Positions 31,629 to 33,214 of a stretch of DNA of 33,214 nt are shown here, piece by piece. How positions within the stretch are numbered: the first letter of the stretch is position 1; each line of letters begins with the position of its first letter. The translations under genes were made by a program, and so were the position numbers. The stretch is from contig CALZFR010000005.1 of NCBI GenBank assembly GCA_945648485.1, positions 1 through 33,214 of the forward strand, in the 5' to 3' direction. The notes under the pieces are model-generated. The model was given only the letters and a program-made list of their open reading frames with translations, searched no databases and was not told the origin of the DNA. Source of the DNA: an uncultured Eubacterium sp. GTDB taxonomy: Bacteria > Bacillota > Clostridia > Lachnospirales > Lachnospiraceae.

Positions 31629-31643
31629 GGATTGGAGAGGAAC

Positions 31644-32897
31644 ATGAAAGTTACATCTGTAAAGGGAACTAACGATTATCTTCCTAATGAAGTAGAGATA
31701 AGAGATTATCTCCAGAATCAGATATTATCAGTATATAAAGCTAACGGATTTGAACATATTACAACACCTATTCTTGAGGACATCGAGAACCTTGATAAAA
31801 GTGATGGTGGAGAGAACCTTAATCTTATATTTAAGATTATGAAGCGTGGTGACAAGCTTGATAAGGCGCTGGAGTCAGGTGTTACATCAGCCAATGAGAA
31901 CGAACTGGCTGACATGGGACTGCGCTACGACCTTACACTTCCATTAAGCAGATATTATGCAAATAATAAAGATAAGCTTACAATTCCTATGAAGTGTATC
32001 CAGATGGACAGGGTATACAGAGCTGAGAGACCCCAGAAGGGAAGATTAAGAGAGTTTGTCCAGTGTGATATTGATATTATTGGTTCAGATTCAACAGATA
32101 GCGAGATAGAACTTATTCTTACAACAACCAAGGCTCTTGATGCAATTGGAATGAAGAATTACAAGGTAAAGGTTAATGACAGAAGATTACTTCGTGCTGT
32201 GCTTTCTTCATTTGGATTCGAGGATAAGGATCTTGACAGTGTGTGTATCACTTTTGATAAGATGGACAAAATCGGACTTGAGGGAGTTACAGAGGAACTT
32301 AACGAAAAAGGATTTTCTGATACAGCTGTTAATAATTTTAAAGTGTTTCTGTCGAAACAGGATTTCAGCCTGACATCAATAAGAGATATGCTTGATGATA
32401 AGGAGCCTGCTGACAGCCTGATTCATATTATTGATTCAGTTAATGAGATTACAGGCAATGCATATGATGTAGTATTTGACCTGTCACTGGTAAGAGGACA
32501 GGGATACTATACAGGAACGGTATTCGAGGTTGAGAGTATTGACTTCAAGGGAGCTATTGCTGGTGGTGGAAGATATGATAATCTTATAGGCAAGTTCCTT
32601 AACGAGAATGTTCCTGCAGTAGGATTTTCAATTGGATTTGAGAGAATTTTCTCAATTCTTATGGAGCATGGAATCAGTATACCAGACAGAGAGAAAAAGG
32701 TAGCTGTTATGTACGATTCTGAGAATCTTGTTAAGGCTGTAAGAATTGCAGATGGCTTAAGAGAACAGGGATGCGCAGCATCTTTGTATGTTAAGCCTAA
32801 GAAGCTTGGCAAGTTCCTTAATAAGCTGGAAGAGAGAGCTTATGACGGATTTGTAAATGTGGAGAATGGACCAGAAGTGAGCTGGTTTGAAAAGTAG
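31644..32897 (+). CDS. hisS: Histidyl-tRNA synthetase with short anticodon-binding domain
   Basis: The track start (TTG 31632) is inside the SD (TTGGAGAGG); ATG 31644 gives 417 residues. Class II and histidine motifs: VKGTNDYLP, LRYDLTLPLSRYY, motif 2 VYRAERPQKGRLREFVQCD, the histidine-binding LVRGQGYYTGTVFE (classical form LVRGLDYYT), GGGRYDNL and motif 3 AVGFSIGFERI. These favour a catalytic HisRS over the HisZ regulatory paralog. The C-terminal anticodon-binding domain is only about 67 residues (from KKVAVMYDSE to the stop) against ~90-95 in typical HisRS. The giant palindrome begins 54 bp after the stop. The downstream sequence in frame does not resemble the missing part. Confidence 0.9.
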   Translation: MKVTSVKGTNDYLPNEVEIRDYLQNQILSVYKANGFEHITTPILEDIENLDKSDGGENLNLIFKIMKRGDKLDKALESGVTSANENELADMGLRYDLTLPLSRYYANNKDKLTIPMKCIQMDRVYRAERPQKGRLREFVQCDIDIIGSDSTDSEIELILTTTKALDAIGMKNYKVKVNDRRLLRAVLSSFGFEDKDLDSVCITFDKMDKIGLEGVTEELNEKGFSDTAVNNFKVFLSKQDFSLTSIRDMLDDKEPADSLIHIIDSVNEITGNAYDVVFDLSLVRGQGYYTGTVFEVESIDFKGAIAGGGRYDNLIGKFLNENVPAVGFSIGFERIFSILMEHGISIPDREKKVAVMYDSENLVKAVRIADGLREQGCAASLYVKPKKLGKFLNKLEERAYDGFVNVENGPEVSWFEK

Positions 32898-32951
32898 AAC
32901 ATTCAGCAATTGACTGATTTATGGCTGCTTAGGCTGTGTTTCTGGGGTTTT

Positions 32952-33214
32952 GCGATACTCCCGGCAGAAATACGCTGATGGGCTGGTATACAGTTACAGC
33001 TGGAACGATTGGGCGAAATCTTAGTGCTGCGGCATGTATGGATTACACTTCGCCACCAATGGGGCAACTGTTTGAGCCCCGACCAGGGGCGAGTTTTGAA
33101 CCATTGGTGAAATAAGCGAGTGTAATTCATATATGTCGCAACACTTAGACTTTCGACCTGTTCCAGCTGTAACTGTATACCAGCCCATCAGCGTATTTCT
33201 GCCGGGAGTATCGC
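32952..33214. repeat. Giant palindrome: 55-bp perfect inverted arms around an imperfectly paired 153-bp core
   Basis: The left arm 32952-33006 (starting GCGATACTCCCGGCAGAAAT) and the right arm 33160-33214 are exact reverse complements over all 55 bases. The core continues the pairing with mismatches: CTTAGTG/CACTTAG, TGCGGCATGTATGGATTACACT against AGTGTAATTCATATATGTCGCA, and CACCAATGG (33054-33062) against CCATTGGTG (33101-33109). The apex GGGGC-aactgtttga-GCCCC-gacca-GGGGC offers two alternative hairpins. Together with 54 bp after hisS it fills the last 317 bases, with no credible gene. The right arm matches to the final base, so the true outer boundary may lie beyond the window. Confidence 0.95.

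Follow-up and report, generated by a model that had tools for sequence, protein, structure and literature searches.

In bacterial palindromic repeats, it is usually the ends that are retained and the middle that is lost. The bcr repeats of Bacillus cereus are comparable dispersed palindromic repeats, and REP/BIME/REPIN units are ~25–100 bp long and associated with RAYT. The ERIC (IRU) sequences are 127-bp imperfect palindromes of the enterobacterial RU class (PMC2759123). Template switching has been reported to homogenise the arms of inverted repeats and to invert their spacers (PMC8604942).

The palindrome family described here is the reverse of the usual repeats: the middle is kept and the ends vary. 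It is a real, dispersed, "inside-out" palindromic repeat; its conserved tip is common to distant bacteria, and its arms are copy-specific. We found no description of it in the open-access literature searched by topic and by sequence words. The family works like a MITE or a REP element. As in MITEs, ERIC and bcr, its copies are short, non-coding, dispersed, intergenic and palindromic, and some are nested insertions. Unlike these repeats, it is conserved at the apex and not at the ends, its arms are locus-specific, and neither defined ends nor a target duplication was found in the window's family. With the REP/BIME/REPIN repeats and their RAYT it shares dispersed hairpins downstream of genes, often in inverted pairs, but its copies measure 200–600 bp and its host genomes lack a Y1 transposase. 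Its arm homogenisation and spacer inversion resemble those of template-switch-homogenised inverted repeats (PMC8604942) and, likewise, of the coding palindromes of Nematomorpha mitochondria (PMC6649704). In contrast to both, the family is dispersed, with tens of copies and one conserved core.

One copy lies at the end of the window, i.e., the whole 33,214-nt stretch analysed, which is contig C5 of the draft genome G000 (222 contigs, 78% complete). The palindrome continues in contig C145. The features are as follows.

31632–32897, + strand: hisS (histidyl-tRNA synthetase), left convergent neighbour; an ORF matching Pfam PF13393 (E=2e-48), with its stop 7 bp before the palindrome.
32904–33214, no strand assigned: in-window portion of the whole palindrome, which extends ~47 bp into C145, to the stop of a convergent tetR-like gene.
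32929–33006, + strand: left arm, 78 bp perfectly complementary to the right arm and its C145 continuation.
33012–33154, + strand: conserved core, matched by covariance model R1 with 148 bits; 47 full copies in two genomes.
33068–33096, + strand: apical motif CTGTTTGAGCCCCGACCAGGGGCGAGTTT, common to hairpins of distant genera, with GA flanking the apical stem on both sides.
33110–33116, + strand: conserved, one-sided A-rich bulge AAATAAG on the core 3' strand; a similar bulge occurs in genome G051.
33160–33214, + strand: right arm, truncated by the contig end; its final 32 bases recur at the start of C145.

The initial annotation had described perfect 55-bp arms at 32952–33006 and 33160–33214. 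These segments are indeed complementary at 55/55 positions, but the C145 continuation shows that the true perfect arm is 78 bp (32929–33006). C145 opens with 32 bases identical to the window end, and reverse-complementing its first 55 bases gives exactly window positions 32929–32983. When the window and C145 are joined, the palindrome is ~358 bp long and runs from 32904 to 47 bp beyond the window end. Because two independent stops fall at exactly 55 bp, we infer that the figure of 55 and the arm end at the window edge are assembly effects of a 55-mer de Bruijn break; the core orientation of the window copy is therefore uncertain. In the close relative G015 (99% complete), the same two genes flank a palindrome in the interior of a 388-kb contig, with C145 aligning beyond it. 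Thus, the palindrome is real; in the window copy, assembly has affected the break point alone and perhaps the orientation of the core. The fold greatly exceeds chance expectation: the 263 nt give -195.7 kcal/mol (z = -24), and 0/200 shuffles were as good. We also considered an intrinsic terminator and rejected it; the 300–600 bp palindrome has no layout of a short GC hairpin with a T tract.

Using a DNA search, we checked the copy number. The palindrome turned out to be a dispersed intergenic structural repeat, as one of the earlier proposals had it, with ~50 copies in two related gut bacteria, and not a single copy. Its middle part has many copies in G000 and G015 and none in the other 20 genus genomes. 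We extracted 14 distinct full cores from G000 and 33 from G015, and all 47 are centred in a longer palindrome. In the 388 kb of G015, read unselected, the long palindromes were the core loci, two with other apices and a few of terminator size; the shuffled control gave 0. The two with other apices, C1:318239-318502 and 108598-108759, have a different, GACGTAGC-rich apex and arms resembling those of the core elements; they are perhaps a second core family. A near-perfect palindrome on G015 contig C7 (L104:3366-3511) has 69-bp arms, almost no loop and no core; it may be empty or may never have been filled.

The conserved unit is the ~143-nt core at the apex, not the outer arms. The inner part, previously regarded as decayed, is what the dispersed family conserves, and its asymmetries are internal loops that are conserved as well. 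Alignment of 30 cores gives a 49-pair fold, in which 24 of the 49 pairs show double compensatory changes (0/500 shuffles as high) and 97.9% of cells are paired, versus about 29–42% when the fold is slid. There are 104 G.U cells versus 6 A.C cells, an excess that is weaker per pair position (18 versus 6) and to which orthologs do not contribute independently. The consensus energy is -82.7 kcal/mol, versus -53.4 for the opposite strand. The G.U excess and the energy difference point to one core strand acting as RNA or single-stranded DNA. Asymmetry is conserved at AGAAGAAATCTTAG/CTTAGATTCTCTTCG, at the AAATAAG bulge and in the apex CTGTYTGAGCCC-GGGCGAGTT. The GA found on each strand next to the apical stem is like a kink-turn, by resemblance only. 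For the structured RNA that was suggested earlier, the core features and the covariation in the conserved fold speak in favour; single-stranded DNA may also account for them, and the arms show no G.U preference. In Rfam, window positions 32600-33214 had no match at E values up to 1, and six distant loci had none at the gathering score.

The arms behave differently from the core. Over 60 nt, their mean identity is 0.90 within a copy versus 0.44 between the left and right arms of different copies. A GTGAC-type arm (~46 bp) is present in 22 of 44 copies, with a between-copy identity of 0.68. In the 22 copies without it, identity is 0.92 within versus 0.39 between copies, and the best match is always the copy's own partner. 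Terminal inverted repeats common to all copies were not found. Since arm mismatches are as often A.C (92) as G.T (99), with no strand preference, arm matching is a DNA-level property. At 5 of the 7 orthologous loci compared, the arms are clearly less alike between species (0.59–0.83) than within one copy, and the flanking DNA of orthologous loci (G000/G015) aligns at roughly 91–97%. At locus L111, the outermost arm includes an inverted copy of the 3' end of the neighbouring gene (25/25 bp, including the stop codon). Longer imperfect inverted copies of gene 3' ends lie in the outermost arms of L021, L064, L068, L014/L118 and L008/L116. As the coding end is the source sequence, copying from one flank to the other took place at least at those loci. 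The inner arms of L013/L106 (~95 bp) differ from each other, and each is almost perfect; no third copy of this arm type was found in the ~0.9 Mb examined.

We also compared the sites between the two species. Most copies examined lie at sites occupied in both. Three G000 copies face a coreless G015 site (C153/C20, C83/C1 and C73/C9). These seemingly empty sites are explained as apex deletions, in which a deletion between short matches leaves arm stubs. No clean pre-insertion empty site was found among the G000/G015 comparisons. One candidate for a clean insertion, L018 of G000 versus L111 of G015, was set aside, as apex deletion at a 3-bp match would also account for it. Relative to the flanking genes, the core is inverted in L008/L116 and L014/L118; the window core is apparently inverted relative to G015, and the assembly may affect its orientation. 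Nested copies, with cores inside halves of older cores, also occur. At C153/C20 (L011, L170), the flanks are almost identical while other loci differ by ~5% between the species, and this sequence comparison suggests a recent exchange.

Between two close species, arms can be seen to grow and turn over, cores to invert and apices to be deleted, and dozens of these natural palindromes exceed the lengths that E. coli is known to tolerate. How quasi-palindromes become perfect is a long-standing question. With dozens of natural examples of these changes, it becomes directly testable in natural genomes. Absence of SbcCD was rejected as an explanation: neither G000 nor G015 has an SbcD match above the cut-off, but the same holds for about six other near-complete congeners that do not carry the family, and SbcD is present in 8 of 10 distant carriers. 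SbcD loss does not track the family and is at most permissive.

The window palindrome fills the gap between the convergent hisS and tetR-like genes; hisS is found in 20 of the 22 genus genomes. Among the 30 loci with both neighbours readable, convergent pairs flank 22, co-directional pairs 8 and divergent pairs none, against a baseline of 12% convergent and with orthologs counted twice. Only a few bp separate the palindromes from the stop codons. Neighbouring hairpins within 1.5 kb of each other (in G494, G342, G447, G015 and G000) have the -+ orientation in 11 of 13 cases and never +-. A search for cargo between paired copies yielded only ordinary chromosomal genes.

These data are best explained, and in our view probably, by a conserved core with hairpin-templated, locus-specific arms that persists between convergent genes. 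The explanation is based on the conserved core, the paired locus-specific arms, the convergent bias, the inverted gene 3' ends, the apex deletions and the inversions. The window end is one copy of a set of dispersed long intergenic palindromes, with the ~143-nt core hairpin in the centre and locus-specific arms. Constraint would act on one core strand, folded as RNA or single-stranded DNA, with its conserved internal loops. During replication, a strand would fold back at the core, and template switching would copy one side, arm or flank, onto the other. Such hairpin-templated synthesis would keep the arms matching, lengthen them and sometimes replace them; template switching could also account for the inverted cores and for the apex deletions between short direct repeats. 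The palindromes persist between convergent genes, where neither promoters nor operons would be disturbed, and may end transcription from both sides. New core copies would most likely arrive by inserting into the loops of palindromes already in place, of which the nested copies would be examples. The anatomy gives good support for arm maintenance by hairpin-templated copying, and we infer template switching as its cause. Several findings speak against the explanation: about half of the copies have the common ~46-bp GTGAC arm, as if arms moved with the core by ordinary transposition; inner arms of the L013/L106 type need a new sequence source; a clean pre-insertion empty site was not found; and the G.U excess of the core is weaker when counted by pair position, with orthologs that are not independent.

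The first of these findings would be expected of a MITE-like mobile palindrome. Here the core and inner arms, as long terminal inverted repeats, would move as a unit by a trans-acting transposase into existing hairpin loops, and the outer arms would be older nested insertions. The cores within halves of older cores and the common ends GATGCCTG...CAGGCATC of G342 copies would also fit. Nevertheless, the other half of the copies have unrelated arms, the window's family shows neither fixed ends nor a target duplication, every available comparison of an occupied with an unoccupied site is an apex deletion, and most examined sites are occupied in both species. Neither a candidate enzyme nor an autonomous copy was found in the loci read, and the reported lack of a transposase near the window copy was confirmed. 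A MITE with 55-bp terminal inverted repeats, as first proposed, does not agree with outer arms that differ in almost every copy. We regard the general MITE-like reading as doubtful.

The convergent location, the few bp to the stop codons and the core covariation could instead reflect functional 3'-end RNA, i.e., long hairpins between convergent genes that terminate transcription in both directions or stabilise mRNA as 3' structures, with pairing under selection. This is rather unlikely: the arms have no excess of G.U over A.C, unlike what RNA-level selection would give, at 30–240 bp they far exceed a terminator, and the family occurs in only 2 of the 22 genus genomes.

A REP/BIME-like element mobilised by a Y1 (HUH, RAYT) transposase would account for intergenic hairpins with mostly -+ neighbours. 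It is very improbable, as the Y1 transposase (PF01797) is absent from G000 and the 99%-complete G015, is present in 13 of the 22 genus genomes, and the unit is ten times larger than REP. An assembly fold-back, suggested by a right arm that ends exactly at the contig end, is excluded for practical purposes by the G015 ortholog internal to its 388-kb contig, the C145 continuation on the far side and dozens of internal copies.

Relatives were found beyond the genus. Four more genera of the family have matches to the covariance model (best E 5e-11, 1e-9, 5e-6 and 1e-4), and the matches inspected are again palindrome apices with unrelated arms. Of 392 genomes searched in the order, 36 contain the motif CTGTYTGAG-N6-24-CGAGTTT, with up to 26 matches per genome; the reversed control gave 0–1. 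Together, the model and the motif reveal multi-copy long hairpins in many other genera within the order and in a few outside it. In multi-copy genomes, almost all matches lie at the tip of hairpins with ~70–190 nt arms, which often have patches that vary between copies and pair within a copy. Elsewhere in the phylum the motif is rare (5/150 genomes, including G000 and one family member). An apical motif common to several genera points to an undescribed structured element. Tentatively, the module CUGUYUGAG-stem-loop-CGAGUUU may mark widespread, undescribed selfish RNA/ssDNA hairpins of Clostridia and beyond, which would spread by the core only and grow matching arms from host flanks by templated copying.

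In G570, from this wider set of the phylum, four motif copies lie inside an element with matching ends; at L284, L287 and L290, the ends of this element (TAGATTCCGCTGAAAAAGTC...) resemble insertion-sequence ends. Contig C2 of G342 (L230, L231) carries at least 10 hairpins in 38 kb of ordinary chromosomal genes, and several of them have the common ends noted above and downstream repeated DNA. Phage and plasmid collections searched with one such repeat gave no match, and the exact core pattern has 0 matches in viral contigs. The general motif occurs in 33 contigs there, of which only five, four of them unambiguous, have hairpin arms; these are GC-rich hairpins. On one GC-rich, phage-like contig (L260:7362-8879, IMGVR_UViG_3300010373_001371), two inverted motif hairpins flank two small genes.
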